A DNA stretch of 64,000 nucleotides from Proteiniphilum sp. X52 (GTDB lineage Bacteria; Bacteroidota; Bacteroidia; Bacteroidales; Dysgonomonadaceae). A program made the position numbers and the translations under genes. Under the pieces are notes generated by a model. It was given only the letters and a program-made list of their open reading frames with translations. It was not told the origin of the DNA and ran no database searches. Shown in pieces: positions 14,063 through 32,071 of this stretch; the first letter of the stretch is position 1; the number at the start of each line of letters is the position of its first letter. The stretch spans positions 248,001 to 312,000 of the forward strand of contig NZ_RDSD01000002.1 of NCBI RefSeq assembly GCF_003712195.1, read 5' to 3'.

Positions 14063-16243
14063 ATGAAATTCAGCCATATAGGTGTTTTTCTGTGCCTCTT
14101 GTTGGCAAAGCCTGCTTTTGCGGGAAAAGTTGACCTGCCGGTAAAGGACGAGCCTTATGCCGTCCCGGTATCGGTGAAGTATGCATTATCTCCGAAATGG
14201 AAAGATGTCCGCTTCAAGAAAGTTGTGGCAGATGGGGATAACAGTATTTTCATATTGACTGATGCCGGCCTCTTCCGTGATTTTCCGGGGGAAATCATTT
14301 CCAAGGATCTCCGGTACGCCTCCCTGGCAGATAAATGTCCTGTCGATATTTGTGTCCAGGAAGGGACTGGTTATCTCTATTATCTGTATCCCGACCGTTT
14401 CCTTACCAATAAACATGCCGGTGCAATATGCGGCCTGCTGCCTGAAAACAAATACAGTCACATGGCCGTAAACAGCAAGGATGACGTCTTGTTGATAGGG
14501 GAGCGGGCGGGTGTGGTATATAACCGAAACACCAAGGTCAGGGAGTTGGGTCTTCCTCCTGATGGGCTGGTCAGGGTGTATGTGTCGGACGACCGATTCT
14601 GGTATCTGTCTGCCACAGGCATCTATTGGCTTGACCGTGACAAATGGGTGAAGATCCATTCCGGTAAAAACCTGACAGCAATGGCATTCAATGGGGATAA
14701 GATAGCCGTGGGTACCACGGATGGCTATTACGTGATTGACCGGAGCGGAAAAATCGTTGAATCTCATAACAATAAGCTTCCCGTACCCCTTATTAACGTG
14801 ATGTTGGCCGTGGATGGAAACTATTGGTTTGCAACCGATCAGGGCGCTTTTGTCAAACAACCCGGGGGGTTCGACTATTACGCCTCCAAACGTTGGCTCG
14901 ATCAGGACAAGATCATAGATATGGCCGCGGACAGCGACGGAAACCTTTACTTTTTAACCCCGTCCGGTTTGAACAAGGTGCAGTTTGAACAGGAAACACT
15001 GGCTGAAAAAGCAGCGTTTCTGCAGGACAACCTGCGCAAGTATCATCTCCGTTATGGTTTCTCATCCGCTTCGCGGTTGGTCGACCCGGATGATCCTGCC
15101 ACCCTGCGCCTCGACGATGATGACAATGACGGTTTATGGACCTCATTCTATCTGGGAAGTCAGGCATTCCGTTATGCCGTCACCAAAGAGGAGAAAGCCA
15201 AAGAGTATGTATGGGAATCATTCGAGGCTTTTGAAAGATTACTGACTATCCATCCCATAGAGGGATTTTCGGCAAGGACATTCGAGCGGACAGGTTATAT
15301 CGCCGGAGACACCATCCCCTGGAGGCCCGCCCCCGACAAGAACTGGTGGTGGAAGGGAACCACCAGCACCGATGAGTTTGTGGGTTATCTGTTCGTCACC
15401 TCCGTGATAGACCAGTTTGTCGCGCAGACGCCGGAAGAGAAAAAACGGGTGGCGGACTATTTCGATGCTATCATGACCCATATCATCGCCAACGATTATT
15501 ATTTTATCGATCATGATGGTAAACCCACACTCTGGGGCAGATGGAATCCCGAGTATGTGAACTCTTTTGCCACCACCCAGTTCGACCGCAGGTTGAACAG
15601 CACATTGACCATCACCGGGTTGCAATTGGCCTATAAACTCACAGGAAAAGAGATCTATAAGAGTGAGGCGTTTCGTATGATGGAAGAGCATGGATATCTG
15701 GATAATATGAAAATACCGATGGGCAATATCCGTTTTACCCCGGGATTCCAGCACCAGGGAATCACCATGGGAGAGGACTGGAACCATTCTGATGATGAGA
15801 TGGCATTCCTTACCTATTGGGTGTTATACCATTATGCGTTTGACGATACCTTAAAGCGGGAATATGCGAAAATGATACGCGATCATTGGGAGATTGAGAA
15901 ACCGGAACGCAATGCACTCTGGAACCTGCTGGCCTATGGAACATCGGGTGATATCGATCTGGAATCCACCCTCTGGTATCTGCAAGGGTTTCCCAAAGAC
16001 CGTCGCCGTTATGTGGTGAAAAACTCACACCGGAAAGACCTGGAATTTCTGCCGAAAGATGCCAGCACCAACTTCAGGGAGCAGACAACTACCCAACTTA
16101 TCCCTAAAAGGGAACGGCCGCTGAATAGGCATAATAATAACGAATTTATTATTGACGGAGGAAGGGGCACGCATCAGCAGCTTACCGGCGATGAGTTTCT
16201 GTTGCCTTATTGGATGGCGCGTTACCTTGATGTGATTCGATGA
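14063..16243 (+). CDS. Exported beta-propeller plus (alpha/alpha)-barrel protein, possible glycan-active enzyme
   Basis: This is a 726-residue protein with an N-terminal signal sequence (FLCLLLAKPAFAG). Residues ~45-310 are a beta-propeller-like repeat region with blade-like strings (ADGDNSIFILTDAGLFRD, NVMLAVDGNYWFATDQGAFVK, DMAADSDGNLYFLTPSGLNKV) like those in the sensor half of hybrid two-component systems, but no kinase follows. Residues ~330-726 are helix-rich with paired W/Y/H motifs (DDDNDGLWTSFYLGSQAFRYA, IHPIEGFSARTFERTGY, WKGTTSTDEFVGYLF) and look like an (alpha/alpha) toroid of the kind used by many glycoside hydrolases and lyases. Acidic residues in LDDDDNDGLW and STDEF could be catalytic. 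It follows SusD in the polysaccharide locus. I know no characterised homologue. Confidence 0.6.
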   Translation: MKFSHIGVFLCLLLAKPAFAGKVDLPVKDEPYAVPVSVKYALSPKWKDVRFKKVVADGDNSIFILTDAGLFRDFPGEIISKDLRYASLADKCPVDICVQEGTGYLYYLYPDRFLTNKHAGAICGLLPENKYSHMAVNSKDDVLLIGERAGVVYNRNTKVRELGLPPDGLVRVYVSDDRFWYLSATGIYWLDRDKWVKIHSGKNLTAMAFNGDKIAVGTTDGYYVIDRSGKIVESHNNKLPVPLINVMLAVDGNYWFATDQGAFVKQPGGFDYYASKRWLDQDKIIDMAADSDGNLYFLTPSGLNKVQFEQETLAEKAAFLQDNLRKYHLRYGFSSASRLVDPDDPATLRLDDDDNDGLWTSFYLGSQAFRYAVTKEEKAKEYVWESFEAFERLLTIHPIEGFSARTFERTGYIAGDTIPWRPAPDKNWWWKGTTSTDEFVGYLFVTSVIDQFVAQTPEEKKRVADYFDAIMTHIIANDYYFIDHDGKPTLWGRWNPEYVNSFATTQFDRRLNSTLTITGLQLAYKLTGKEIYKSEAFRMMEEHGYLDNMKIPMGNIRFTPGFQHQGITMGEDWNHSDDEMAFLTYWVLYHYAFDDTLKREYAKMIRDHWEIEKPERNALWNLLAYGTSGDIDLESTLWYLQGFPKDRRRYVVKNSHRKDLEFLPKDASTNFREQTTTQLIPKRERPLNRHNNNEFIIDGGRGTHQQLTGDEFLLPYWMARYLDVIR

Positions 16244-16291
16244 CGTGATGGTGTGTAATTCATTATAAAACTAAAAAATAAAATTGAACGT

Positions 16292-17647
16292 ATGAAGAGA
16301 TTACTGTTTATTTTAACTGTCTATTTTTGCGTTATTGTTGGATTTGGCCAACAAGCGATTACGCCTGAAACGGCACTGGATGCCTATGTCCACAACGATG
16401 ATCCTACCTGGGGATGGGAAGTGCGCAACAGATACCCAATCGATGACACGGAGGTCTATTCCTTGCTGTTCATCTCTCAGAAATGGCATGGGATGCTATG
16501 GAAGCATGAACTCATTGTCTTTGTCCCGCAATCTGTAAAACAGGACGGAGCACTCCTGTTTATTGACGGAGGGTCGGTAAATGACGGCATTCCCAAATTT
16601 TCGAAGGAGGATAATGCCTTGTTCATGTTCCTCTCGGCCCTGGCCAACCGGAATAATGCCCTTGTATGTATATTGAAACAGGTGCCCAATCAACCCCTTT
16701 ATGGCGGCTTGAAAGAAGATGCGTTGATCTCCCATACGCTCAATGAGTTCAGGAAAGACAAAGATTACTCCTGGCCATTGCTTTTTCCTATGACCAAAAC
16801 GGCGTACAAGGCCATGGATGCGGTGCAGGAATTTGCCGCGCGGCAATTGGACCGGCAGGTAAACCGTTTCCTGGTTTCAGGGGCATCGAAGCGGGGATGG
16901 ACAACCTGGCTTACCGGGGCGCTTCAGGATCCACGTGTGGAAGCCATCGCTCCCATGGTGATTGAAATGCTGAACATGCCGGCCAGCCTGGATTATCAGA
17001 AACAGGTATACGGTGAATATAGTGAAGAGATCAATGATTATGTCAAACTGGAGATCCCGCAGGCAATCCACAGTGAATTTGGAAACGCTGTGGTACAGAT
17101 GATAGACCCTTATTCCTACCGCGAAAAACTGACAATGCCCAAAATGATTTTTATGGGAACAAATGACCCTTATTGGGTTGTGGACGCCATTAAACATTAT
17201 ATCAACGATATTCCCGGGCATAACCTGTTGCATTACGTTCCCAACGCAGGCCACGGTTTGGGAGATAAGAGGCAGGCTTTTGCAGCGCTCGGTTCGTTCT
17301 TCGCCCATATGCTGGACAAGACGGATTATCCTGCCTGTGAGTGGAACCTGACGGGGAAAGGTAAAAATATTGACCTGAAGGTGAAAGCCTCTCCCGATAA
17401 CTTGGTAGGGGCTACCCTATGGAAATCGGTCTCGGACAGCAGGGATTTCCGTAAAGCGACCTGGACCAAAAGCGACATACAGCTGAATGCCAAGAACAGG
17501 TCGGCTGTCGACCTCAGGATTCAATATCCGAAAAAAGGATTCCAGGCCTTTTATGTGGACCTGGTCTATAAAGATCCTCATGGCGACGAATACACGGTCA
17601 GTACACGGACCTTTGTCTCGGACAACAAAAAAGTATTTGTAGAGTAA
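16292..17647 (+). CDS. PhoPQ-activated pathogenicity-related (PqaA-type) alpha/beta hydrolase, exported
   Basis: This 451-residue protein has a short signal sequence (LLFILTVYFCVIVGFGQ). Its sequence fits the PhoPQ-activated pathogenicity-related family (PqaA): TPETALDAYVHNDDPTWGWEV, SQKWHGMLWKHELIVFVP, LLFIDGG, and the nucleophile elbow LVSGASKRGWTTW with probable Ser199. A later Asp (FMGTNDPYW) and His (NAGHGLG) complete a likely triad. The family's reaction is poorly defined; an esterase or peptidase acting in the periplasm is plausible. Here it sits between a glycan-active protein and a deacetylase, which favours removal of an ester or other substituent from the glycan, by inference. The next gene begins 32 bp later. 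Confidence 0.82.
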   Translation: MKRLLFILTVYFCVIVGFGQQAITPETALDAYVHNDDPTWGWEVRNRYPIDDTEVYSLLFISQKWHGMLWKHELIVFVPQSVKQDGALLFIDGGSVNDGIPKFSKEDNALFMFLSALANRNNALVCILKQVPNQPLYGGLKEDALISHTLNEFRKDKDYSWPLLFPMTKTAYKAMDAVQEFAARQLDRQVNRFLVSGASKRGWTTWLTGALQDPRVEAIAPMVIEMLNMPASLDYQKQVYGEYSEEINDYVKLEIPQAIHSEFGNAVVQMIDPYSYREKLTMPKMIFMGTNDPYWVVDAIKHYINDIPGHNLLHYVPNAGHGLGDKRQAFAALGSFFAHMLDKTDYPACEWNLTGKGKNIDLKVKASPDNLVGATLWKSVSDSRDFRKATWTKSDIQLNAKNRSAVDLRIQYPKKGFQAFYVDLVYKDPHGDEYTVSTRTFVSDNKKVFVE

Positions 17648-17679
17648 TGGCTGATTTTTAATTAATAAATAGATCAAAA

Positions 17680-18600
17680 GTGATGAGAGGAATTCTGATA
17701 CTGGGTTTATTGTTTTTTATAGCAAGCCTGCCCGCCCAAACGCTGGCGGAACGCTTGGGATATAAAAAAACGGATAAACTGCTAATTATCAACAATGACG
17801 ATGCCGGTATGTGCCATGCTGCCAATACCGCTACGATTGAAGGGATGGAGAACGGGTTTATCAGCTCGGCTACCATCATGATGCCCTGTTCCTGGTCGAA
17901 TGAGATCGTAAAGTATGCGAAAGAAAATCCGGATAAAGGATTTGGCGTGCACCTCACATTGACCTCGGAATGGAAGAACTACCGATGGGGAACCGTGGCG
18001 CCGCGCGATGAAGTCCCGGGGTTATACGACGGGCAGGGCTATATGTGGAAAGGTGTGAGGGAGGTGTACAATGCCTCCAATACCGAAGAAGCCTTGATTG
18101 AAGGCAGGGCGCAGATCCGTAAGGCGTTGGATGCAGGGGTACGGGTCACCCATATCGACTCCCATATGGGAACCTATCAGTACTCACCGGACTATATGTA
18201 TGTCTACCTGCAATTGGCAGAAGAGTTTAACCTGCCGGCGCGTATGCCGTCGCAATCCACACTGGACAATATGGGAGCCCCTTCTTTCAGGGATATCTGT
18301 AAGGAGAAAGGAATTATTCATCCCGATTACTTCATTCACGAGGAGTTGCAAGACTACAAAACAGAAAATCTGGAGGAGTTCTGGACTGGGTATATTAAAA
18401 ATATACAGCCCGGAGTGACGGAAATTTATATTCATGCGGCCACAGAGGGGGACGAAATACGGGCGATCACCGGTTCTGCTCCCAAACGCATAAAGGAATT
18501 GGAATTTTTTACCAGTGACCGGTTCAGGCAATTGATTGAAGAGGAGGGTATCATGGTTATCAGTTACCATCCCTTGTTTGAATTGCAAAGAAAAAAATGA
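17680..18600 (+). CDS. YdjC/ChbG-type carbohydrate deacetylase, exported
   Basis: This 306-residue protein is related to chitooligosaccharide deacetylase ChbG/YdjC, which removes N-acetyl groups from GlcNAc-containing oligosaccharides using a metal. Visible features are a signal sequence (ILILGLLFFIASLPAQ), the metal/catalytic motif LIINNDDAGMCHAANTATIEGM (Asp pair), FGVHLTLTSEW with a metal-binding His, VTHIDSHMGT and a C-terminal HPLFELQ. Most ChbG homologues are cytoplasmic, so a signal peptide points to a periplasmic role. The stop overlaps the next start (ATGA at 18597-18600), so translation with the metallophosphoesterase is likely coupled. Deacetylation followed by an exo-glucosaminidase two genes later would make biochemical sense. 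Confidence 0.85.
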   Translation: MMRGILILGLLFFIASLPAQTLAERLGYKKTDKLLIINNDDAGMCHAANTATIEGMENGFISSATIMMPCSWSNEIVKYAKENPDKGFGVHLTLTSEWKNYRWGTVAPRDEVPGLYDGQGYMWKGVREVYNASNTEEALIEGRAQIRKALDAGVRVTHIDSHMGTYQYSPDYMYVYLQLAEEFNLPARMPSQSTLDNMGAPSFRDICKEKGIIHPDYFIHEELQDYKTENLEEFWTGYIKNIQPGVTEIYIHAATEGDEIRAITGSAPKRIKELEFFTSDRFRQLIEEEGIMVISYHPLFELQRKK

Positions 18601-20522: not shown

Positions 20523-20604
20523 ATAATCAAACATAAAAGAGATGCGCTACATTTAGCAGTGATACAACTATGCCAAATGAATAAATAGAAAGAGATATAG
20601 TCAT

Positions 20605-23262
20605 ATGAAAATCAGTTATATTATCATACCATTAGCATGCGTTTTATTTTTGTGTTCCTGCAGGCAGAAAAGCACGATTGAAGAACTCATCCTGACAGAT
20701 AACTGGTATATCCATTCCGCTGAGGGATTGGATCAGGATGGAGCGGCATTATCTGTCTCTCCGCTGACAGATAACTGGCTACAAACATCTTTACCCGCCA
20801 CGGTGTTGGGGGCATTATGCAACGCAGGCGTATACGAAGAACCCTTTTTCGGCATGAATCTGGAAGAGATACCGGTTGAGCAGTTCAAAAAACCGTGGTG
20901 GTACCGGACCTCTTTCGACCTGGCAGGGTTCGATCCGGAGAAAGAACAGACGAAGTTGCTGCTGGACGGCATCAATTACAGCGCCAATGTATGGCTCAAC
21001 GGCCACCTGATCCTTTCGGCAGACACTGCTTTCGGAGCCTTCCGGCAGTTCGCCTGCGATATCACCTCTATCGCTTTGGAATCGGGAAATAATCTGGCTA
21101 TCGAGATATTGCCTCCGCAGCCGGGTGATTTCTATATGGGGTTCGTCGACTGGGCGCCTGTCCCACCCGACCATAACATGGGTGTGTACCGGCCGGTAAG
21201 GATCAAGCGGAGTGGAAAGGCTTCCATCGACCGCCCTTTTGTGACAACCCATCTCAACACCCAAACATTGGATGAAGCCACCCTGTCCATTTCGGCAGAA
21301 CTGACCAATCATCATTCCGAACCAAAAAAAATGACCCTGGAAGCCAGGATAGAAAACAGTGTGGTCAGTCAGACATTTACCGTGGAGCCGGGTAAGACCT
21401 TTCTGGCCGAACTTGACCCTGAGAAATTCAAAGAGTTGACCATAAAGAATCCCCGTCTCTGGTGGCCAAATGGACTGGGAAATCCGGAGATGTACACCAT
21501 GCATCTGTCGCTGAAAGAGGGGAGCACGCTCTGCGACACGGCGACGGTCCGCTTCGGTATACGCACCATAGCTACCTATCTCAATAAACAAAACGTACGG
21601 GGATATACAGTAAACGGAAGGGAAGTGCTGATCAAGAGCGCCGGTTGGGTTGACGACCTCTTTCTTCGCGATAACACCCGCAGTAACAGGGCGCAGATAC
21701 GCTACGTAAAGGAGATGAACCTTAATTCTCTCCGGTTTGAAGGCTTCTGGGGGACGAGCCGGGAGATATATGACCTCTGCGACGAAAACGGTATCCTGCT
21801 GATGGTCGGATGGAGCTGTCAATGGGAATGGCCCGATTACCTCGGCCTGGAGATGGAGGTTCCGGAAGAGGATGAGAATATCCCCATCAATGAGGGGGTC
21901 GACAAATATGGCGTGAAAATCACTCCTGAAGAAGCACAATTGTTGTCCGACATGTTCAGGGACCAGCTGTTGTGGCTGCGTAACCACCCCTCTATTTTTG
22001 TCTGGGCGGTGGGCAGCGATGCCATGCCTAAACCCTCATTGGAAAAGAAATACCTCGAGACAATGCGGAGGTATGACAAAAGCCGTTCGTTACTGGTCTC
22101 TGCCGGTGATTTTACCAGCGACCTCTCCGGAGTAACGGGGATGAAGATGAACGGCCCTTATGAATACGTCCCTCCCGTCTATTGGTTCGAAGATAAAAAA
22201 CTGGGGGGCGCTTTCGGGTTCAATACCGAAACAGGCCCCGGACCGCAAATACCCCCGATAAGCAGTATCAGGAAAATGATCCCCGAAGAATATCTTTGGC
22301 CGCCATTGAACCAGATGTGGGATTATCACTCGGGACGGAAGGACTTCAACAGTGTGAAAGTCTACCTGAATGCGTTAAACAAAAGATACGGCACACCCGA
22401 GAATCTGGAAGAACTGGCCATGAAGGCGCAATGGGCGAATTATGAAGCCATCCGGCCGATGTTCGAGGCATTCGTCGTAAACCGTCCGCAAGCAACCGGA
22501 GTGGTGCAATGGCAGTTGAATTCAGCCTGGCCCGAATTTTACTGGCAACTTTACGATTGGTATTTAATGCCTACCGGTGCCTATTTCGGCACAAAGAAAG
22601 CCTGTCAACCCATCAATATCATTTACAACTACCATGACAGGAAAATATATGTTTCCAACGATATATTGGGTGATATTACCGAACATACGGTCAGGGCAAC
22701 ATTGTACGACAGTCAGTCCCGAATAATATTCGAACAGGGGAAAAAGTTATCTGTTAAAGAGAATAGATCCGTTGTTTTTACGGAGTTGCCGGAGCTGCCC
22801 GATAAAAAAGGGACCTATTTCCTGAATTTGACCTTGCATGACAGTCAGCACAAGCGGGTTGCCGACAATTTTTATTGGTTGTCGGGTCAGGAAGATCAGA
22901 TGGATTGGGATCAATACTATTGGTTCTATACTCCTCAGAAGCGATATGCCGATTTCCACGAATTGAATGACCTGCCTCAGCCTCAGGTGAGTGTCACAAA
23001 GAAAGTGTACAAAGAGGACGACGAATGGGTGGTGGAGGTGAATCTGGACAATACGAGTAAAAATATCGCATTCGGCATAGAGTTACTATTAGTGGACAAT
23101 CAAACGGAAAATCCCGTACTTCCGGTATATTGGAGCGATAATTATGTATCTTTGGTGAATGATGACACCAGAACGATTACGGCTCGCTGTAGCCTGGCTG
23201 ACGCGCCATCCGAACCTTCGGTAATCATACAGGGAATAAATGTGGAACGGATAAAAAAATAA
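20605..23262 (+). CDS. GH2 lipoprotein of the exo-beta-D-glucosaminidase (CsxA) type
   Basis: This is an 885-residue exported lipoprotein (lipobox FLCSC, Cys19). Residues ~50-200 form the GH2 sugar-binding domain (WWYRTSFDL, LLLDGINYSANVWLNG), ~210-320 the immunoglobulin-like domain, and ~325-650 the TIM barrel. In ordinary GH2 enzymes the acid/base lies in an NE pair; here that position reads VGSDAMP, with Asp472 replacing Glu. The nucleophile is Glu542 in FNTETGPGPQIP. An Asp acid/base is a mark of the exo-beta-D-glucosaminidase branch (CsxA uses Asp469/Glu541, from memory). The enzyme would release GlcN from non-reducing ends, matching the deacetylase two genes upstream. Beta-mannosidase or mannosylglycoprotein endo-beta-mannosidase relatives are alternatives. 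Confidence 0.82.
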   Translation: MKISYIIIPLACVLFLCSCRQKSTIEELILTDNWYIHSAEGLDQDGAALSVSPLTDNWLQTSLPATVLGALCNAGVYEEPFFGMNLEEIPVEQFKKPWWYRTSFDLAGFDPEKEQTKLLLDGINYSANVWLNGHLILSADTAFGAFRQFACDITSIALESGNNLAIEILPPQPGDFYMGFVDWAPVPPDHNMGVYRPVRIKRSGKASIDRPFVTTHLNTQTLDEATLSISAELTNHHSEPKKMTLEARIENSVVSQTFTVEPGKTFLAELDPEKFKELTIKNPRLWWPNGLGNPEMYTMHLSLKEGSTLCDTATVRFGIRTIATYLNKQNVRGYTVNGREVLIKSAGWVDDLFLRDNTRSNRAQIRYVKEMNLNSLRFEGFWGTSREIYDLCDENGILLMVGWSCQWEWPDYLGLEMEVPEEDENIPINEGVDKYGVKITPEEAQLLSDMFRDQLLWLRNHPSIFVWAVGSDAMPKPSLEKKYLETMRRYDKSRSLLVSAGDFTSDLSGVTGMKMNGPYEYVPPVYWFEDKKLGGAFGFNTETGPGPQIPPISSIRKMIPEEYLWPPLNQMWDYHSGRKDFNSVKVYLNALNKRYGTPENLEELAMKAQWANYEAIRPMFEAFVVNRPQATGVVQWQLNSAWPEFYWQLYDWYLMPTGAYFGTKKACQPINIIYNYHDRKIYVSNDILGDITEHTVRATLYDSQSRIIFEQGKKLSVKENRSVVFTELPELPDKKGTYFLNLTLHDSQHKRVADNFYWLSGQEDQMDWDQYYWFYTPQKRYADFHELNDLPQPQVSVTKKVYKEDDEWVVEVNLDNTSKNIAFGIELLLVDNQTENPVLPVYWSDNYVSLVNDDTRTITARCSLADAPSEPSVIIQGINVERIKK

Positions 23263-23293
23263 CAGACTGGTCGCCATGTACAGACTTGAAATC

Positions 23294-25633
23294 ATGAATA
23301 AAGGGAATGCGGCGTTGAAAATCTGCCTTGTTTTATTGTGCATTTCCTCCACCCTTTTTGCCGGTGAGATCGATCTTTCCGGCAGCAGGTTGCTTGTGTC
23401 GCCTTCCATCAAATCTCCCGTGAAGGAGACCATCATTCAGCTCTTGCAGGAAGAGATCCACAGGCGTACGGGCATTCATTTAGGTGTTACCGACGCCTGG
23501 GGCGGTTCGCCGGTCATCGCTTTGGCACTCTCTTCGGATGGGATATTGAACGGCAAGGCGCTTCCTGACACGCTTCCTGAAAAGACAAAACTCCCCCTGC
23601 AAGCCGAATCATTCAGCGTGGTGGTGCAAGAGGACGCCCCCCGGCCGGTGATCTGGCTTGTCGGAGCCGATGAGCGCGGGGTTTTGTTTGCCGCGGGACA
23701 CCTGCTGCGCACATCTTTGCTTGCCGACAAGCAGATCCTGTTCGACTCTTCAAACGCCGTACAAAGCGCACCCGATTATCCCATCCGAGGACATCAGTTG
23801 GGTTATCGCAATACCGCCAATTCCTACGATGCATGGACAAAGGAGCAGTATGAGCAATATATCCGGGAGTTGGCGATTTTCGGGACAAACTGTATAGAGA
23901 CGATTCCTTTTGACAATACGCCTAGTCCCCACATGAAACTCTCCAAGGAAGAGATGAACCGGCATATAAGCACCGTATGCGGGAATTATGGCATTGATTA
24001 TTGGGTATGGACACCGGCCAACGTGGATCTGTCGGATGAAAACCTGTTCAGGGCCGAAGTGAAGAAGCACAGCGATTACTACAGGCAATGTCCGCATCTG
24101 AGCCATGTCTTTGTGCCGGGCGGTGATCCCGGGGATAATCATCCGCGGCATGTGATGCCTTTCCTGAAAGCGATTGCCGCCGAGCTGGAAAAGTACCATC
24201 CCCGTGCAGGAGTTTGGGTTTCATTGCAGGGTTTCAGCGATGAGCAGATCGATTATTTTTACCATTACCTGGAGACAGAAAATCCGGATTGGTTGCGGGG
24301 AGTGGTAAGCGGCCCGGGTAGCCCTTCCCTGTCTGACACGCGCTACCGGTTACCCGGGAAGTATATGCACCGCCATTACCCCGATATTACCCATACTGTC
24401 CGATGCCTCTATCCCACCCTCCGCTGGGATCAGGCGTTCGCCCTTACGTTGGGCCGCGAGCCGGTCAACCCGCAACCATTCTATTACGCGGAGTTACACG
24501 ACCGGTATGCCCCTTTCACCGATGGTTTCCTCACCTACTCCGACGGAGCGCATGACGATCTGAACAAGTTCGTCTGGAGCCGCAAAGGATGGAGTATGGA
24601 GGAAGATGCCGCCGGTATCACGGAGCAATATGTACGGTTCTTCTTTGGCGCCAAACCCGATGATCGGGTAACCGACGCCATACTGGCATTGGAACGCAAC
24701 TGGGACGGACCCATAGAGGCAAACGGGGGGATAGAGATGACTTTCCTGCGCTGGCGGCAGCTTGAAGAGGACTATCCCCGCCTACAAAGCGACTGGCGAT
24801 GGCAGATGCTGTTGCTCCGCGCGTATTATGACACTTATACCAAGAGGCGGAAGTTATTCGAACAAAGGTTGGAGCGCGAAGCCGCTAAATGGCTCGGGAA
24901 GGCCTCCGAAATGGGTGCTGCCGGGGCGATGAAACAGGCTTTGGAGAAAGTGAACGAGGCCGACCGGGTAAATATTGCCCCTTCGTTGAGAAAGAAGATC
25001 GATGATTATTGCGACGCGTTGTATAAATCGGTAGGTTTGCAGACAAGCGTGGAAAAATATCAGGCCAGCGGCGCTGAACGAGGCTGTGTGCTCGATTTCG
25101 CGGACTATCCGCTGAACAACCGCTGGTGGTTGTCCGACCGGTTTGAAAAGATCGGACAAATGGAAACCGAAGCCGAAAAGCTGGCCGCTTTAGAGGTGAT
25201 CGCCCGATGGGAAAATCCCGGAAAGGGGAGTTATTACGATAACATATCGGATATCAGCCGGAGTCCGCGGGTAAAGACAACGGTCTATGACGCTACCGAT
25301 GTGGCCTGGTGGGACGGCGGAATGAGTCGTAAGAGGCTGTCTACCCAGTTATTCCAGAACTTCCCGAAACTCCTGTACGAGGATCTTGATCCCAAAGCGC
25401 GTTACCTGATCCGTACCGCCGGATACGGCGATGCGTTGCTCAGGGTGGATGGAGAGCGCATATCCCCTACCCTCTACAATAGGGAGCTGGAGGAATTCAA
25501 AGAGTTCCCCATAGATAGAAGATTCTTTCAGGACGGTAAGCTGGAGGTTTCATTCGATGAACCGGAAGAGTCTCACCTGAACTGGCGTCAATATTCCAAG
25601 ATTTGTGATATCTGGCTTATAAAAATAAATTGA
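23294..25633 (+). CDS. Exported alpha-glucuronidase/hexosaminidase-like protein
   Basis: This is a ~779-residue protein. I start it at ATG 23294, which begins a normal signal sequence (MNKGNAALKICLVLLCISS); the in-frame ATG at 23276 adds six residues. Residues ~25-150 resemble the small alpha/beta domain in front of GH20, GH67, GH84 and GH115 catalytic barrels (KETIIQLLQEEIHRRTG, VIWLVGADERGVLFAAGHLLR). A TIM-barrel-like region follows (PIRGHQLGYRNTANSYDAW, FGTNCIETIPFDN, WVWTPANVD, HVFVPGGDPGDNHP), then a helical segment and a beta-rich C-terminus (KARYLIRTAGYGDALLRVDG). Conserved acidic residues such as PGGDPGD and YSDGAHDDLNKF are candidates for catalysis. I cannot assign a GH family. It lies 31 bp after the GH2 gene in the same operon. 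Confidence 0.65.
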   Translation: MNKGNAALKICLVLLCISSTLFAGEIDLSGSRLLVSPSIKSPVKETIIQLLQEEIHRRTGIHLGVTDAWGGSPVIALALSSDGILNGKALPDTLPEKTKLPLQAESFSVVVQEDAPRPVIWLVGADERGVLFAAGHLLRTSLLADKQILFDSSNAVQSAPDYPIRGHQLGYRNTANSYDAWTKEQYEQYIRELAIFGTNCIETIPFDNTPSPHMKLSKEEMNRHISTVCGNYGIDYWVWTPANVDLSDENLFRAEVKKHSDYYRQCPHLSHVFVPGGDPGDNHPRHVMPFLKAIAAELEKYHPRAGVWVSLQGFSDEQIDYFYHYLETENPDWLRGVVSGPGSPSLSDTRYRLPGKYMHRHYPDITHTVRCLYPTLRWDQAFALTLGREPVNPQPFYYAELHDRYAPFTDGFLTYSDGAHDDLNKFVWSRKGWSMEEDAAGITEQYVRFFFGAKPDDRVTDAILALERNWDGPIEANGGIEMTFLRWRQLEEDYPRLQSDWRWQMLLLRAYYDTYTKRRKLFEQRLEREAAKWLGKASEMGAAGAMKQALEKVNEADRVNIAPSLRKKIDDYCDALYKSVGLQTSVEKYQASGAERGCVLDFADYPLNNRWWLSDRFEKIGQMETEAEKLAALEVIARWENPGKGSYYDNISDISRSPRVKTTVYDATDVAWWDGGMSRKRLSTQLFQNFPKLLYEDLDPKARYLIRTAGYGDALLRVDGERISPTLYNRELEEFKEFPIDRRFFQDGKLEVSFDEPEESHLNWRQYSKICDIWLIKIN

Positions 25634-25696
25634 ATAAATTGTGGCCCATGAGTGCATGAACTATAATTGTTTAACAACATAATTTTCATATTTGTC

Positions 25697-27055
25697 ATGG
25701 AAAATAGAAGGGAGTTTATTAAGAAAGTATCGGCCGGCGTAGCTGCCATGGCTGTTAGTAGTAAGGGTTTTGATCTGAGCGCCGGGAGTTATGCCCATAT
25801 CCCCGGTGCGAATGATAAGATCCGTGTGGGAATTGTCGGTTTTTCCGACAGGTTCAGGAGTTCGCTTTTACCCGCCTTTATGAGCCATGCCAGGGAGTTG
25901 AATTTCGAACTGGTGGCGCTGTCGGATATCTGGAACCGCCGTCGTGAGGAGGGAAGAGCCTATATCAAGGAAAAAACCGGGTGGAATGTGGCCCTGTGCC
26001 GCAATAACGATGAGTTGTATGACCGCAACGACATTGATGCGGTCATTATCAGTACCGCAGATTTCCAGCACGCGTTGCATCTGGTGGAAGCGGCAAAGGC
26101 GGGTAAGGATGCCTATTGCGAAAAACCGTTTGCGGAAACCATGGATGATGCCAATGCCGCATTAAAAGCCTGTAAGGAAAGCGGTATAGTGGTGCAGATA
26201 GGATCACAACGCCGCAGTGGGGCGAATTACCATGCCGCCCATGATTATATCCGTTCCGGGAATTTCGGCGATATCGTGATTGCCGAGATGTGCTGGAACG
26301 TGAACCAACCGGGCCGTTGGCGCAGGCCGGCGTTATGTGCTTCCATCAGGGAGGGCGACGTGGACTGGAACCGCTATCTGATGAACCGTCCCAAAGTGGC
26401 GTGGGACCCCCGCAAATACCTTGAATACCGCCTGTTCTGGCCCTATTCGTCAGGCATACCGGGACAATGGATGTGTCACCAGATCGACACCGTACACTGG
26501 TTCACAGGCTTCCCCTATCCGCGCAGTGTGGTGTCCAACGGAGGGATTTACCAGTGGAAAGACGGTCGTACCAACGCCGATACGCTCACCTCGGTATTCG
26601 ATTACGGGCCGTTGGATGATGAGAGCAAAGGTTTTCAGGTAGTCTATTCGTCCCGTTTCAGTAATTCTGCCGGCGGCACAAAAGAACTTTACTATTCGAA
26701 CGGCGGGATGTTGAACCTGGATACCAACGAAATTACTCCCGAGGGTGGATTGGGTGAGCGAGAGGCATCTGCGATGGGATTAAAGGCCAACCGGCTCGAT
26801 AAGCTCACTCTGCCGAAAGTTACCGTGGAAGCAGAAGCCAATACGGGAGCCGATCCCCTCACATCCGCCCATATGCGCAACTGGATGGAGTGCGTCAGGG
26901 CGAAGAATGTGGCCACCAACTGCCCGGTGGAAGCAGGGCATAGCCATACGATTGCCTGCGCCATGGCAAACGCCGCCTACCGGACAGGTATGCGCGCGGT
27001 GTACGATCCCGAAACACAGCAGATTATGGCGGGAGGAAAAGTATTTAAGTACTAA
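25697..27055 (+). CDS. Tat-exported Gfo/Idh/MocA-family oxidoreductase
   Basis: This is a ~452-residue NAD(P)-dependent oxidoreductase-fold protein. ATG 25697 gives a twin-arginine signal (MENRREFIKKVSAGVAAMAVSS); the upstream in-frame ATG at 25667 would add hydrophobic residues in front of the RR and is less likely. The Rossmann domain shows KIRVGIVGFSDRFRSS, and the family signature is KDAYCEKPFAETMDDANAALKAC, followed by IVVQIGSQRRSG. The C-terminal domain ends with a His-rich segment (CPVEAGHSHTIACAMAN). Exported Gfo/Idh proteins in polysaccharide loci include GH109-type NAD-dependent glycosidases and sugar 3-dehydrogenases. Which applies here is unknown; acting on a GlcNAc-type residue would fit the neighbours. 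Confidence 0.85.
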   Translation: MENRREFIKKVSAGVAAMAVSSKGFDLSAGSYAHIPGANDKIRVGIVGFSDRFRSSLLPAFMSHARELNFELVALSDIWNRRREEGRAYIKEKTGWNVALCRNNDELYDRNDIDAVIISTADFQHALHLVEAAKAGKDAYCEKPFAETMDDANAALKACKESGIVVQIGSQRRSGANYHAAHDYIRSGNFGDIVIAEMCWNVNQPGRWRRPALCASIREGDVDWNRYLMNRPKVAWDPRKYLEYRLFWPYSSGIPGQWMCHQIDTVHWFTGFPYPRSVVSNGGIYQWKDGRTNADTLTSVFDYGPLDDESKGFQVVYSSRFSNSAGGTKELYYSNGGMLNLDTNEITPEGGLGEREASAMGLKANRLDKLTLPKVTVEAEANTGADPLTSAHMRNWMECVRAKNVATNCPVEAGHSHTIACAMANAAYRTGMRAVYDPETQQIMAGGKVFKY

Positions 27056-27059
27056 AATA

Positions 27060-27112: not shown

Positions 27113-27132
27113 CCATATCACACCATTGAAAA

Positions 27133-27329: not shown

Positions 27330-27375
27330 ATATTTTTAGTCATATGAAACCGACCTGTTTACAATAATCATTACA

Positions 27376-27510: not shown

Positions 27511-27516
27511 ATCAAA

Positions 27517-27537
27517 GGTTCCATATACCGAAATAAA
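27517..27537 (+). promoter_or_regulatory. Leader motif shared with the lacZ-type gene
   Basis: GGTTCCATATACCGAAATAA plus one A lies 16 nt before the ATG and occurs identically (on the minus strand) 17 nt before the GH2 gene that starts at 47834. The bases between motif and ATG are also nearly the same. Its function is unknown. Confidence 0.6.
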
Positions 27538-27553
27538 GAAATAAGATAATCAT

Positions 27554-28411
27554 ATGAAATCTTTTTATTACACTATAATGTTGGCATGCCTTGTGTTTGG
27601 AATGACATCTTTTTCCGGCCTTTATGAGCCGGAATTTGCTGTGTGTACAAGCGTGTCCAATTATCCGTTGCTCAAAGCGACAGGGTATACGTATGTCGAG
27701 TCGAACGTGTCATACCTGATGCCTGACAAGAGTGATGCTGATTTTCAGGAACATCTGGATGAAATAAGGAAATTAGAGGCCAGAATTATTTCCTGTACCA
27801 GTTTTATTCCCGGCAGTTTGCCGCTGACCGGTCATGAAGCCAGACATGATCAAGCGGTGGTCTGGGCCGATTCTGCCTTGCGTAGGGCGGGAATGGTAAA
27901 TATTCCTTACATCGTTTTCGGAAGCGGAAAAGCCCGTAATGTGCCGGAAAATTTCAGTAAGGAAGAAGCTACGGAACAATTCATTTCTTTCTGTAAACAG
28001 ATCGCTCCGTTGGCTCAGAAGTACAAAGTGACGGTGGTTATCGAACCCCTGAACAGGTCGGAAACCAACCTGATCAATTCCCTGGAGGAAGGCGCCCGGA
28101 TCGTGGAAGCAGTCGATCATCCTAATCTGCAGTTACTCTGTGATATATACCACATGATGCGGGAAGAGGAACCCGCATCGGAGATAGTGAAATATGGTAA
28201 GTATATCCGGCATTGCCATATTGCCGAAAAAGAGGAGCGTACCTCTCCCGGCACCAAGGGTGATGATTTCAGGCCCTATTTCAAGGCATTGAAACAAATA
28301 GGGTATAAGGGTTGCGTTTCTATTGAATGCAGATGGAAAGATCTGGATAAGGAAATACAACCGGCGTTGTCTTCCATGCGGGAGCAGTTTCGCTCTTTGT
28401 CAATCAGATGA
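27554..28411 (+). CDS. Exported xylose-isomerase-like TIM-barrel protein (sugar phosphate isomerase/epimerase superfamily)
   Basis: This 285-residue protein has an N-terminal signal sequence (YYTIMLACLVFGMTSFSG). The rest is an AP-endonuclease-2/xylose-isomerase-like barrel. Likely metal ligands are Glu in VVIEPLNRSETN, Asp and His in LQLLCDIYHMM, His in RHCHIAE and Glu in CVSIECRW. Members isomerise or epimerise sugars or act on related compounds. An exported form would act in the periplasm, possibly on 3-keto sugars made by Gfo/Idh enzymes such as the one upstream; that link is inference. The gene has its own upstream region with a leader motif shared with the beta-galactosidase gene at 47834. 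Confidence 0.8.
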   Translation: MKSFYYTIMLACLVFGMTSFSGLYEPEFAVCTSVSNYPLLKATGYTYVESNVSYLMPDKSDADFQEHLDEIRKLEARIISCTSFIPGSLPLTGHEARHDQAVVWADSALRRAGMVNIPYIVFGSGKARNVPENFSKEEATEQFISFCKQIAPLAQKYKVTVVIEPLNRSETNLINSLEEGARIVEAVDHPNLQLLCDIYHMMREEEPASEIVKYGKYIRHCHIAEKEERTSPGTKGDDFRPYFKALKQIGYKGCVSIECRWKDLDKEIQPALSSMREQFRSLSIR

Positions 28412-28493
28412 ATATAAAAAATAGTAGATTCTTTGATAAAAAAATCAATGTGTAAAACTCATCGGAAATTATTCTCACGAAATATATTAAATT

Positions 28494-29591
28494 ATGAAAA
28501 GAATTCATTTATCGCTTCTTATCGTTTTATCGGTATTTTTTGTTCAGTGCTCATCTGCCGGCCATAAAACCGGACAGGATACCCCTCCGCGGGTGAAGAA
28601 CGTGATCGTGATGATCGGAGATGGAATGGGCGTTAGCCAGGTATATGCGGGACTAACCGCAAATAAGGGATCGCTCCATCTGGAACAGTGTCAGTTCGTG
28701 GGATTTTCCAAAACTTACTCTGCCAATAATTATATAACAGACTCCGGCGCGGGAGGAACTGCCATCGCGTGCGGAACCAAAACCAAGAATGGCGCCATTG
28801 GCGTGGATGTGGATGGGAAACCGGTTCAATCGATCCTTGAATATGCCGCGGCACACGGTCTGTCAACCGGTGTGGTGGCAAGCTGTGCCGTCACTCATGC
28901 TACGCCGGCATCATTCGTGGCACACCAGCCCAGCCGTAAAATGGAAGAAGAAATTGCAGCGGATTTTGTAAACTCCGACATCACGGTTTTTATCGGAGGC
29001 GGAAAAAGATACTTTGATGCCCGTTCTGATAATGAAAACCTGTTGGATAAACTGGAAACGAAAGGTTTTCGGGTTGCGCTCAATATGGATGACGTGAAGA
29101 AAGTCACCACGGGCAAACTGGCGGGACTCGTGGCGGACGAACATCCGGCTCCCTATCCTGAAAGGGGGGAATTTCTTCCCGAAAGCGTGCAAGCAGCGAT
29201 CAATCTGCTGAAAAACAATGAAAAAGGATTCTTCCTGATGGTGGAAGGTTCTCAAATAGACTGGGCTTGCCACGCGAATGAAAAAGACGCCACCGTGAAT
29301 GAAATGCTGGACTTTGACCGGGCGATTAAAGTGGCTTTCGATTACGCGGACCAGGACCCGCACACGCTGGTTATTATCACGGCAGACCATGAGACGGGGG
29401 GTATGGCGCTTACCGGCGGTGACCTGTCAACCGGAGAGGTGGAAGCGACCTATGCCTTAACGGGGCATACCGCCGTGATGGTTCCCGTTTTTGCTTATGG
29501 CGCGGGTGCCGTTGCATTTGCCGGTATATACCAGAATACCGATATTTTCACCAAAATGCTGAATTTATATGGTTTTGGAACGGAAAAATAA
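28494..29591 (+). CDS. Alkaline phosphatase (PhoA family) lipoprotein
   Basis: This is a 365-residue lipoprotein (FFVQCSS lipobox, Cys19). The alkaline phosphatase superfamily core is clear: VIVMIGDGMGVSQV with metal ligand Asp43, the nucleophile segment YITDSGAGGTAIACG with Ser84 after Asp83, ATPASFVAHQPSR, FLMVEGSQIDWACHAN, and VIITADHETGGM supplying Asp/His metal ligands. It should hydrolyse phosphate monoesters in the periplasm or at the surface. It lacks the insertions of longer PhoA proteins, as is common in Bacteroidetes. Within this locus it is the second phosphatase. It lies 82 bp after the TIM-barrel gene and 66 bp before the sialidase-like gene. Confidence 0.9.
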   Translation: MKRIHLSLLIVLSVFFVQCSSAGHKTGQDTPPRVKNVIVMIGDGMGVSQVYAGLTANKGSLHLEQCQFVGFSKTYSANNYITDSGAGGTAIACGTKTKNGAIGVDVDGKPVQSILEYAAAHGLSTGVVASCAVTHATPASFVAHQPSRKMEEEIAADFVNSDITVFIGGGKRYFDARSDNENLLDKLETKGFRVALNMDDVKKVTTGKLAGLVADEHPAPYPERGEFLPESVQAAINLLKNNEKGFFLMVEGSQIDWACHANEKDATVNEMLDFDRAIKVAFDYADQDPHTLVIITADHETGGMALTGGDLSTGEVEATYALTGHTAVMVPVFAYGAGAVAFAGIYQNTDIFTKMLNLYGFGTEK

Positions 29592-29657
29592 GCCCTTTTC
29601 ATCCCGGAATAGGGTATCTGGGCGCCCATTATGGTTGTAAACAAATAAAATTGTCGC

Positions 29658-30710
29658 ATGGTGAATAGAAAAATTACAGTACTGTTATGCCTGCTGTTAC
29701 TATCAGCAGGCCGGTTACCCGCAAATGAATCCTTTTCCGCGCGAACGGAAAGGGAAAGATTACGCGCCATCCAACCCGTGATTCTTCATTCGGAAATAAT
29801 CCCGGCACCGGCTTTGGTGCCATCGGCACATGCCTCGACCATTGTGGAGACCGATGATGGCTTACTGGCGGCATGGTTCGGAGGGACTTACGAAAGGCAT
29901 CCTGACGTGAGTATTTACACCTCCAGGTTCAAAAACGGCCAGTGGAGTCTCCCCGTGATGGTAGCCGATGGCGTACAGGATGAATCGCAGCGGTTCCCCT
30001 GTTGGAATCCGGTCTTGTTCAAACGAGAGAACGGAGATCTGATCCTTTATTACAAAGTGGGGCCGAGCCCCAGTACCTGGTGGGGGGAATATAAGATATC
30101 ATCGGACGAGGGCAAGACCTGGTCTGCCATGGAGACTATTCCGCGCGGATGCCTCGGGCCGATCAAAAACAAACCGGTGATCATCCCCGGAGGCAAAATA
30201 CTCTACCCTACCAGCATAGAAATTCCAGGAAAATGGAATGTCTATATGGAGATGTCGAACCAGGATCTGACGGACTGGGAAAAAATAGAGATCGACAACA
30301 ACGGTTTTGACGCTATCCAGCCTTCGGTATTGTTTCATAAGGATGGAGCCCTGCAGATCCTCTGCCGTTCGAAAAACGAAACTGTGGTGGAGTCCTGGTC
30401 GTATGATAACGGCAAAACCTGGTCGTCCCTGGCGCCTACACGACTGCCCAATAACAACTCCGGCACGGATGCCGTAACCTTGCCTAACGGCTTGCAGTTG
30501 ATTATTTATAATCCGATTACCTCAGGGAGGAATAAACTGGCGATAGCCGGCTCGTATGACGGCAGGACATGGGAAAAACTGATCGATCTGGAAGACCAGC
30601 CCTCCGGTGAATTCAGTTACCCCGCTATTATCCGGGATAAGAAAGGAAATGTCCATGTGACCTATACCTACAACCGCGAAAAGATCAAATATGTGCGGTT
30701 GAAGTTCTAA
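29658..30710 (+). CDS. Exported BNR-repeat sialidase-like glycosidase
   Basis: This 350-residue secreted protein has a signal sequence (ITVLLCLLLLSAGRLPA) and a six-bladed sialidase-like fold of the BNR_2 type. Asp-box motifs are visible as SSDEGKTWS and SYDNGKTWS, with the related SYDGRTWE. The N-terminal region ASTIVETDDGLLAAWFGGTYE and the following RFPCWNPVLF and GCLGPIKNKPVIIPGG are typical of the family. BNR_2 proteins include exo-alpha-sialidases but also enzymes for other sugars such as rhamnose. Without the three-arginine triad confirmed, I leave the substrate open. No sialic acid lyase or transporter of clear type is in the window. Confidence 0.78.
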   Translation: MVNRKITVLLCLLLLSAGRLPANESFSARTERERLRAIQPVILHSEIIPAPALVPSAHASTIVETDDGLLAAWFGGTYERHPDVSIYTSRFKNGQWSLPVMVADGVQDESQRFPCWNPVLFKRENGDLILYYKVGPSPSTWWGEYKISSDEGKTWSAMETIPRGCLGPIKNKPVIIPGGKILYPTSIEIPGKWNVYMEMSNQDLTDWEKIEIDNNGFDAIQPSVLFHKDGALQILCRSKNETVVESWSYDNGKTWSSLAPTRLPNNNSGTDAVTLPNGLQLIIYNPITSGRNKLAIAGSYDGRTWEKLIDLEDQPSGEFSYPAIIRDKKGNVHVTYTYNREKIKYVRLKF

Positions 30711-30793
30711 ATTGAAAGGGGCAGGGGAAAAGTTCCCGCACCAAGAGATGATTCAATGTGGATTCCGTGTAACGAAAAAGATAAGTTCATCGT

Positions 30794-32071
30794 ATGAAGA
30801 ACCCCATGTCAAATTTGACGTCAAAAAAATCCTACCCCTGGTTAGTGGCGGGTATGCTCTGGTTTGTCGCGCTGTTGAACTATCTCGACCGGCAGATGCT
30901 CGCCACCATGAAGCCTTTCATGGAGGTAGATATTGCAGAGCTGGTTACGGCCACCAACTTCGGACGACTCATGGCGGTATTTCTCTGGATATACGCCTTT
31001 ATGAGCCCGTTGTCGGGTATCATCGCCGACCGGCTGAACCGCAAATGGCTGATTGTGGTCAGCCTGTTTGTCTGGTCAGGAGTAACGCTTGCCATGGGGT
31101 ATGCCCGGAATATCGATCAGTTATTTATCCTAAGGGCTGCCATGGGTGTGAGCGAGGCCTTTTATGTACCCGCCGCCCTGTCGCTGATCGCGGATTATCA
31201 CCAAGGGAAAACCCGCTCCTTAGCCATTGGATTCCATACTTCCGGGATTTACCTGGGACAGGCTTTCGGCGGCTTTGGTGCGACGCTGGCTGCGGGGACC
31301 TCCTGGCAATTTACTTTTCATACTTTTGGCCTTATCGGAATGGTATATAGTTTGATATTGATTGCCTTTCTCCGTGAAAAGAAGACCTATGTGATCGACA
31401 CGAGCCGGAAAAGATCCCTCAGGCGGGAGTTAAGTGCGATGGGGAAAGGGTTGACCATGCTTTTCTCGAATATTGCCTTCTGGGTGATCCTGTTTTACTT
31501 TTCCGCGCCGAGTTTACCGGGATGGGCGACTAAAAACTGGCTGCCGACCCTGTTTTCGGAATCGCTGAACATGGTTATGGAACAGGCGGGGCCGTTATCG
31601 ACCATGACGTTGGCGATGTCATCATTGATCGGCGTGTTGGTCGGCGGTTATGTATCCGACCGTTGGGTGGCGAAGCGACTCAAAGGGAGGATCTATACCG
31701 GTGTGATCGGATTGGGACTGACCATTCCCGCGTTGGTGTTGATCGGTTACGGGGGCGGATTATTCATGATCGTTACCGGAGCACTTTTGTTCGGATTGGG
31801 TTTCGGGATATTCGATGTGAATAATATGCCGATCCTATGCCAGTTTGTGCCGTCGCGCTACCGGGCTACCGGTTACGGGTTCATGAATCTGGCGGGCATA
31901 TCGGCGGGTGCGGTAATCACCAACGAATTGGGCAAAGCGCTGGATGCCGGCCACATGAATATGGTTTTTGTTGTGATGATCGCAGCGGTGGCCCTGGCCG
32001 TCATCCTGCAATTGAGCGTGCTCAAGCCGAAGACTGTCGATATGACCGATGAACTGTTAATCCTAGATTAA
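30794..32071 (+). CDS. MFS transporter, anion:cation symporter (ACS) type
   Basis: This is a 425-residue inner-membrane carrier with about 12 transmembrane segments. Motifs are LLNYLDRQMLATMKPFM in helix 1, the MFS signature GIIADRLNRKWLI between helices 2 and 3, RAAMGVSEAFYVPAALSLIADY in helix 4, and a second-half GGYVSDRWVAKR. The ACS family carries organic anions such as hexuronates, sialate and phosphate-linked compounds, so it probably imports the acidic monosaccharide released by the locus. The ATG at 30806 is an alternative start. It ends the + strand run; the next gene is convergent, with 65 bp between them. Confidence 0.85.
   Translation: MKNPMSNLTSKKSYPWLVAGMLWFVALLNYLDRQMLATMKPFMEVDIAELVTATNFGRLMAVFLWIYAFMSPLSGIIADRLNRKWLIVVSLFVWSGVTLAMGYARNIDQLFILRAAMGVSEAFYVPAALSLIADYHQGKTRSLAIGFHTSGIYLGQAFGGFGATLAAGTSWQFTFHTFGLIGMVYSLILIAFLREKKTYVIDTSRKRSLRRELSAMGKGLTMLFSNIAFWVILFYFSAPSLPGWATKNWLPTLFSESLNMVMEQAGPLSTMTLAMSSLIGVLVGGYVSDRWVAKRLKGRIYTGVIGLGLTIPALVLIGYGGGLFMIVTGALLFGLGFGIFDVNNMPILCQFVPSRYRATGYGFMNLAGISAGAVITNELGKALDAGHMNMVFVVMIAAVALAVILQLSVLKPKTVDMTDELLILD

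Follow-up and report, generated by a model that had tools for sequence, protein, structure and literature searches.

A 64,000-nucleotide stretch of the Proteiniphilum sp. X52 genome (contig NZ_RDSD01000002.1; G000:C29:248001-312000 of a 4.43 Mb genome), hereafter the window, carries at 5438-32071 a SusC/SusD utilisation locus (Table 1) whose substrate is probably a phosphorylated amino-sugar glycoconjugate, judging from its enzyme families. Such a substrate may tentatively be given a branch for an acid resembling 3-deoxy-D-manno-oct-2-ulosonic acid (Kdo), and the comparative evidence leans to the Kdo-bearing inner region of lipopolysaccharide (LPS), with LPS itself as the predicted substrate being doubtful; the locus is a utilisation locus and not an established LPS system. 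Every assigned gene lies on the + strand with intergenic gaps of -4 to 223 bases, plus one of 498. The locus starts with genes for a LacI-type regulator, an aldolase resembling N-acetylneuraminate lyase (NAL), a SusE-position protein ending 23 bases before SusC, and SusC and SusD, the last pair being adjacent (13-base gap) and beside carbohydrate enzymes, as is the gene content of a polysaccharide utilization locus (PUL). A sequence-only reading of this DNA had placed the system at 14063-32071, an interval with 11 assigned genes, all on the + strand, in which the PqaA-type, YdjC, metallophosphoesterase, glycoside hydrolase family 2 (GH2), PhoA and BNR proteins that it named were all found. It overlooked the upstream part (5438-13839) with the aldolase, and did not list the unnamed protein P1, the AP_endonuc_2 protein or the transporter of the MFS family. 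Its statement that sulfatases and polysaccharide lyases are absent agrees with the family scans (Pfam and NCBIfam), which covered 30 window proteins and matched neither.

The activities described here, and the substrate, are predictions from gene content, conserved motifs and recurrence. The PhoA-type phosphatase keeps D43, S84, E251, D256, H260, D298, H299 and H325, presumably the metal site and nucleophilic serine, in 9/9 aligned rows from eight distinct loci (genomes G088 and G042 each entered these alignments twice via overlapping loci). In the purple-acid-type metallophosphoesterase the Asp, GD, GNH, H and GHxH motifs, whose roles we likewise assume, are retained in a set of 20 rows that includes paralogs from the second phosphatase gene described below. 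The YdjC protein belongs to its family by the Pfam model (Table 1), by its match to PDB 8jqe (E 3.3e-51) and by the retention of D40, D41, H91, H158 and H162 in 15/15 rows from 13 distinct loci, and is under the cut-off of the chitin disaccharide deacetylase model NF002559 (91/227 bits). The GH2 protein matches exo-beta-D-glucosaminidase 2vzs with E 1.8e-149, with D472 and E542, kept in 7/7 rows from six distinct loci, standing opposite D469 and E541 of 2vzs, which we take to be the catalytic acids. Being of the exo-beta-glucosaminidase type with both catalytic acids, it would fit beta-linked glucosamine (GlcN) such as that of lipid A. Removal of phosphate, N-acetyl and terminal beta-GlcN by the locus enzymes is a sound reading of these families, and the PqaA-like protein, encoded in 14 of the 24 loci compared below, is a candidate esterase or deacylase. 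The motifs of GH2, PhoA, the metallophosphoesterase and YdjC, together with the second purple-acid phosphatase, PafA, GDPD and ceramidase-like domain of relatives, thus support a phosphorylated, N-acylated amino-sugar class. The sequence-only reading had proposed an amino sugar bearing phosphate, which stands by family membership; among the LPS core, teichoic acid and other phosphoglycans that it offered as substrates, the window does not distinguish.

The cluster recurs in Proteiniphilum, in another genus of the family and in Massilibacteroides vaginae, and in a looser form in distant Bacteroidia. P1 is the marker of this module, and the 23 P1-bearing genomes compared, which are related to one another, were selected for its presence, so that the following counts are not independent trials: within 25 kb of P1 lie 15/29 YdjC genes (0.39 expected), 19/69 Pur_ac_phosph_N matches over cut-off (0.96 expected) and 10/58 Ceramidase_alk matches over cut-off (0.85 expected). 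Across 24 P1 loci, the window genome being represented by the first 36 kb of the window, the partners were SusC (18), SusD (16), YdjC (14), the unnamed protein P2 (13), metallophosphoesterase and BNR (11 each), ceramidase-like domain (10, leaving out the 71-residue remnant in the window) and aldolase (10), PhoA and LacI (9 each), second phosphatase and MFS (8 each), GH2 and Gfo (6 each), AP_endonuc_2 (5), an unnamed membrane protein (5), an SSF symporter (4) and an HGSNAT-like protein (3). Several of these loci are contig fragments, in which absence proves nothing, and the genes were named by BLAST similarity to labelled proteins, in some cases at 23-30% identity (for example the aldolase of G482 and the Gfo of G342b). 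The Proteiniphilum-type set is conserved, and the distant one is more loosely composed, with GDPD, HGSNAT-like, GH20, ROK and PafA proteins in addition. GH2 and the HGSNAT-like protein never occur together among the 24 loci, although the numbers are small; the three HGSNAT-like loci are without GH2, one of them (G390) also having GH20 and a ROK kinase. An HGSNAT-like protein is encoded in the P2-paralog locus L074 too. The HGSNAT-like acetyltransferase is a possible second route to the release of GlcN freed of a non-acetyl group.

The phosphatase gene of the window has lost a domain, a point missing from the earlier account. In L002, L005, L006 and L007 this gene encodes 1088 residues, a Ceramidase_alk-like part (1-518) followed by the phosphatase (519-1088), and the window protein matches the L002 protein in two blocks, its residues 1-71 corresponding to 1-71 (100% identity) and its residues 72-641 to 519-1088 (98.6%). 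The window gene is the fusion form with residues 72-518 deleted in frame. The 23 genomes have 12 places where YdjC and the ceramidase-like domain are within 3 kb of each other, and in six of these (G041, G051, G054, G062, G086 and G088) a single open frame of 1092-1117 codons spans the domain and the phosphatase; the domain is a separate protein in L004, L040, L043 and L047, and the phosphatase is separate in L003, L009, L044 and L046. A second metallophosphoesterase gene, encoding 417 residues in L029 and present in G051, G054, G055, G062 and G088, is reduced in the window to its ends, the middle being deleted and the start codon changed. The DNA of the close relative G062 is 96.6-99.1% identical over most of what aligned, with 78-79% in phoA and at the SusD end, and compared with it the window copy is reduced, having lost the ceramidase-like domain and nearly all of the second phosphatase gene. 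Also encoded in loci of relatives are another purple-acid phosphatase, PafA (731/650 bits) and GDPD phosphodiesterases, giving four phosphatase types over all relatives (PhoA, two purple-acid types and PafA) in addition to GDPD; no single one of the relatives' loci compared carries all of them.

Evidence for an acid branch comes from the aldolase, the BNR protein and a fucose isomerase gene in M. vaginae. The aldolase, which has no signal peptide by eye, has the NAL-like block GPEEM and retains GTTGE, Y140, K168 and E197 in 9/9 rows and E198 in 8/9. NALs share a Tyr, a Lys and the block G-P-D-E-Q, and one NAL converted D-arabinose and pyruvate to Kdo with 80% conversion, the relative activity in Kdo synthesis being 1-1.5% of that with N-acetylmannosamine (PMC4016182, as excerpted). 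Assignment as DapA was ruled out by a score of 174.8/206 bits and by His or Asn at what we take, by eye, to be the position of the DapA Arg, to which we assume a role in that enzyme. It is a candidate ulosonic acid (Kdo) aldolase by its motifs. A LacI-type gene lies near the aldolase in G051, G054 and G055 (82-96% identity) and in G041, G050, G046 and M. vaginae (39-57%). The BNR protein matches PDB sialidases weakly (best E 1e-4), keeps H58, R237, R291 and Y321 in 11/11 rows from ten distinct loci, and is a candidate ulosonic-acid (Kdo) hydrolase. CAZy family GH33 lists a Kdo hydrolase beside sialidase (table of PMC9120202), and the excerpted literature on Kdo hydrolases (PMC9120202, PMC5371381, PMC12342981) serves as background only. 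A PL42-type rhamnose-glucuronic acid lyase was ruled out, since PL42 is BNR_4 (PF15892; PMC8377490, as excerpted) and the window protein is BNR_2. Five BNR_2 matches occur in the window genome in all, a second such protein (G000:C14:47933-48754; L069, L072) being 45-46% identical over the compared part and lying in another SusC-bearing region.

The gene order in M. vaginae is P1, phosphatase, GH2, P2, PhoA, GDPD-BNR fusion (L009:13398-15209, the GDPD domain being fused to a BNR_2 protein), LacI, aldolase, FucI and MFS. The FucI gene, the only FucI match in that genome, follows the aldolase after 30 bases in the same operon and passes the L-fucose isomerase cut-offs, and no DUF2961/GH172 match was found in the genome. 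L-fucose isomerase also takes D-arabinose, and aldol cleavage of Kdo yields D-arabinose; for that reason Kdo is favoured over sialic acid, and the NAL-like aldolase, the sialidase-fold protein and the M. vaginae FucI together hint at a Kdo-like acid and so at the LPS inner region.

Two families without a name belong to the locus. P1, a Reg_prop-like beta-propeller followed by an all-alpha half, matched no Pfam or NCBIfam family; in the PDB its profile found BT4663-type sensor propellers (E 1.9e-22), and nothing significant was found for the C-terminal half in Pfam and PDB profile searches. It was modelled with AlphaFold (pLDDT 84.7) and compared by Foldseek, and occurs in 16/101 family genomes and 8/395 class-sample genomes, counting the window's own. 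Tandem P1 gene pairs were seen in G342 (L049:1464-5920 and L053:10769-15414). P2 matched no Pfam family. The best Foldseek match of its model (pLDDT 78.1) is 4c91, a GH115 enzyme (E 3.4e-16, TM 0.48), and the model is nearest to GH115/GH67 alpha-glucuronidases, followed by GH20 and GH84, a likeness at fold level only, with 9-13% identity, query-normalised TM of about 0.3-0.5 and large root mean square deviations. It is to this level that the alpha-glucuronidase/hexosaminidase-like protein of the sequence-only reading is borne out. The P2 profile matched over its N-terminal domain only (O-GlcNAcase 6pv5, E 9.8e-6; GH67, E 8.8e-4), and the P2 paralog in L051 is under the GH67N cut-off (21.0/24.3 bits). 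P2 was found in 3/395 phylum-sample genomes, counting the window's own, and the eight relatives named in one scan were four Proteiniphilum records, two unclassified Bacteroidetes/Bacteroidia, M. vaginae and Chitinophagaceae bacterium DXS. Among the Proteiniphilum records is P. acetatigenes DSM 18083, in which the related locus (L005) is complete.

Table 1. Features of the locus, in window coordinates
Feature	Position	Strand	Family or basis
LacI-family regulator, 338 residues	5438..6454	+	PF00356/PF00532
DHDPS-family aldolase, NAL-like block GPEEM	6610..7536	+	PF00701, E 3.4e-58
PKD-domain protein, SusE position	7699..8712	+	PF18911/PF00801
SusC/RagA TonB-linked receptor	8736..12170	+	TIGR04056, 600/368 bits
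SusD-like protein	12184..13839	+	PF12771, E 7.3e-76
P1, Reg_prop-like beta-propeller with C-terminal all-alpha half	14063..16243	+	no named family
PhoPQ_related (PqaA-like) protein	16292..17647	+	PF10142, E 9.5e-105
YdjC/ChbG-type deacetylase, signal peptide by eye	17680..18600	+	PF04794, E 3.6e-57
Purple-acid-phosphatase-type metallophosphoesterase, 641 residues	18597..20522	+	PF00149/PF16656; Pur_ac_phosph_N
Remnant ends of second metallophosphoesterase gene	20523..20604		DNA comparison with L029
GH2 exo-beta-D-glucosaminidase-type enzyme	20605..23262	+	PDB 2vzs (residues 35-880); Ig_GlcNase PF18368
P2, glycosidase-like, GH67N/GH20b-like N-terminal domain and TIM barrel	23276..25633	+	no named family
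Gfo/Idh oxidoreductase, exported by eye	25667..27055	+	PF01408, E 3.1e-17
AP_endonuc_2 TIM-barrel protein, exported by eye	27554..28411	+	PF01261, E 5.7e-38
PhoA-type alkaline phosphatase	28494..29591	+	PF00245, E 4.3e-77
BNR_2 sialidase-fold protein	29658..30710	+	PF13088, E 7.3e-88
MFS transporter	30794..32071	+	PF07690

The Gfo/Idh protein, which had been read as exported and looks so by eye, has BT_2158 (77.4/750 bits) as best NCBIfam model followed by iolG (74/355), both under cut-off, and the AP_endonuc_2 protein reaches 107/300 bits with IolO. The MFS protein is nearest to organic-anion groups, again under cut-off (TIGR00893, 137/395; sialate group, 41/553 bits). The unnamed membrane protein of the relatives, polytopic by eye and without a Pfam family over cut-off, recurs in P1 or P2 loci (L038:3691-4998, L041:9688-10965, L048:696-2006, L054:13058-15172, L073:1871-3178) and adjoins the aldolase in L038, L041 and L043. 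Downstream, a GH130-family protein and two glycosyltransferases (32137-36890) lie on the opposite strand and end 65 bases behind the locus. The locus directly upstream is of D-arabinan type, with DUF2961/GH172 at C29:227021, 243412 and 245060 and FucI at C29:224807. FucP and AraB (2057-5160) were set aside as members of the P1 locus since DUF6786, FucP and AraB (398-5160) adjoin this GH172/FucI locus (L062, G000:C29:234001-248800).

In the fullest form of the proposal, somewhat unlikely as a whole, a dedicated SusC/SusD locus would dismantle the Kdo-lipid A region of the LPS of other bacteria with an amidase-phosphatase fusion, P1 and P2 as new families and a Kdo-to-D-arabinose branch. The substrate would be the inner part of LPS from dead Gram-negative cells, namely Kdo and the lipid A backbone of beta-1,6-linked glucosamine, with acylated amino groups. 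SusC/SusD would capture and import it, the PqaA-type protein (in relatives also the ceramidase-like domain) would strip acyl chains, phosphate would be taken off by PhoA and the purple-acid phosphatase or phosphatases, and the BNR protein would free the ulosonic acid. YdjC would then take off N-acetyl groups before GH2 frees glucosamine. The MFS protein may import the acid, which a cytoplasmic NAL-like aldolase would split into pyruvate and, if the acid is Kdo, D-arabinose, which in turn would pass to an L-fucose/D-arabinose isomerase and ribulokinase.

A number of observations weigh against this proposal. Neither a heptosidase nor a lipid A O-deacylase nor any Kdo-specific enzyme was recognised, and the alpha-glucuronidase-like fold of P2, Gfo and AP_endonuc_2 are left unexplained by LPS. 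Two parts, the second phosphatase and the ceramidase-like domain, are missing from the window copy. In the L002 copy Ceramidase_alk is barely over its cut-off (34.0 against 32.1 bits), the corresponding part of L005 had no match at E 0.01 in a PDB sequence search, and most of the 58 matches over cut-off in the 23 genomes lie away from P1; given a common family, a marginal score and an empty PDB search, the name says little. The aldolase is under every NCBIfam cut-off (dapA 174.8/206; NAL 138.6/281 and 104.5/382 bits), and the sialidase N-terminal Arg was not seen by eye in the BNR protein, where a His is conserved in a stretch that failed to align in the PDB comparison. GDPD occurs in 4/24 and FucI in 2/24 P1 loci; in the second FucI locus, G080, FucI sits with D-arabinan-type genes, the Proteiniphilum FucI, FucP and AraB go with the neighbouring D-arabinan-type locus, and L-fucose itself would account for FucI. 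Six distant P1 loci (G442b, G342a, G342b, G482, G427 and G465) have few or no partners. The family Ceramidase_alk is numerous in some Bacteroidia, with 19 matches, some under cut-off, in G442 alone.

Among the alternatives, a glycosyl inositol phosphoryl ceramide (GIPC) or similar phosphosphingolipid of plants or fungi would make P2 an alpha-glucuronidase, GDPD a phosphodiesterase and the ceramidase-like protein an amidase acting alongside the phosphatases, with Gfo and AP_endonuc_2 acting on inositol and the HGSNAT-like protein serving alpha-GlcN. It is in keeping with the P2 model being nearest to GH115/GH67 alpha-glucuronidases, with Ceramidase_alk and GDPD in relatives, with the weak, sub-threshold nearness of Gfo and AP_endonuc_2 to inositol/keto-gluconate enzymes and with GH92 in L047 and a GH92-like gene in L043. 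This substrate is nonetheless unlikely, as the exo-beta-glucosaminidase, aldolase, fucose isomerase and BNR protein have no role in it, Gfo is found in only six and AP_endonuc_2 in only five of the 24 loci, and Ceramidase_alk is widespread, its 58 matches ruling it out as proof of a sphingolipid, and is deleted in the window copy, whose locus proteins include no GDPD and which therefore lacks the pairing of ceramidase with inositol-phosphate diesterase. In addition, the amino sugar of plant GIPC is alpha-linked. Among the papers searched, none joined GIPC with polysaccharide utilization; for ceramidase with PUL, two Tenacibaculum genome papers were listed. A sialylated or other nonulosonic-acid glycan, with the BNR protein as sialidase, the aldolase as NAL, a sialate-type transporter and N-acetylglucosamine (GlcNAc) handled by YdjC and GH2, would draw on the NAL-like residues of the aldolase, the BNR_2 protein, the MFS gene and an SSF symporter that adjoins the aldolase in L046. 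It is judged just as unlikely, for the NAL models are far under cut-off, the sialidase N-terminal Arg was not seen by eye, the phosphatases are left unexplained and no NanE or GlcNAc epimerase family turned up in the scan, which covered 30 window proteins and not the rest of the genome.

The D-arabinan-type neighbour raises the possibility that the locus is the second half of a system for the actinobacterial envelope (arabinogalactan and lipoarabinomannan), handling a phosphorylated GlcNAc or inositol anchor. The contig of the window has FucI and three DUF2961/GH172 genes at 16-37 kb upstream of P1, with DUF6786, FucP and AraB in the interval, GH172 lies about 11-31 kb from P1 in G051, G054, G042 and G080 and about 40 kb in G055, and Dysgonomonas gadei PUL42, which acts on D-arabinan, has DUF2961, DUF4185 and fucose isomerase (PMC10115798, as excerpted). 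There is however no such linkage in G041 and G050, where GH172 is elsewhere on the chromosome, M. vaginae has the locus and no GH172, and no GH43- or GH92-type gene is among the window locus proteins, making this reading distinctly improbable (G088, with the genes on other contigs, is uninformative). A teichoic acid with beta-GlcNAc on a polyol-phosphate chain is a remoter prospect: GDPD in relatives, the phosphomonoesterases, the beta-GlcN(Ac) enzymes and the esterase-like protein would suit it, but the amidase-like domain, aldolase, BNR protein and fucose isomerase are unexplained, and GDPD is again wanting among the window locus proteins. Least probable are chitin- or peptidoglycan-derived amino-sugar oligomers with the phosphatases as general phosphate scavengers. 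YdjC with an exo-glucosaminidase is a known chitobiose route, and GH20 and ROK occur in L055 and L074, but no chitinase or muramidase family is present among the window locus proteins and the phosphatases recur in P1 loci. The LPS inner region accommodates more parts than any of these rivals. By titles and abstract starts among the matches listed, the literature reports no LPS-utilising locus, subscription papers being largely outside the search. If LPS is the substrate, the locus would represent a nutritional route of endotoxin breakdown with a bearing on the turnover of dead bacteria and on gut endotoxin; at the level of substrate class alone, two unnamed, modelled families and an enzyme set are tied to a phosphate-rich amino-sugar substrate.

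Compared with known systems, the locus shares with the SusC/SusD PULs of Bacteroidetes the SusC/SusD pair, a SusE-position protein, a regulator, exported-looking hydrolases and an MFS transporter, and differs in its two phosphatase folds, deacetylase, aldolase and two unnamed families and in that the scanned proteins include neither a sulfatase nor a lyase. The GH2 protein has the sequence and catalytic acids of 2vzs, whereas its setting is one of phosphatases and a deacetylase, with no chitosanase family in the locus. BT2156-2159 of Bacteroides thetaiotaomicron is a 3-keto-glycoside pathway, with which the window has in common an exported-looking Gfo/Idh and an AP_endonuc_2 protein, Gfo/Idh having BT_2158 as best model; that score is nevertheless low, no DUF1080 occurs among the 30 window proteins and the pair is variable in relatives. 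P2 shares an N-terminal domain and TIM barrel with GH115/GH67 alpha-glucuronidases and GH84/GH20 hexosaminidases, but at the low identities of the Foldseek matches listed and with no family model over cut-off. The likeness to D. gadei PUL42 (PMC10115798, as excerpted) lies in the DUF2961/GH172 and fucose isomerase families of the upstream neighbour, the D-arabinan-type genes adjoining the window operon from outside it.

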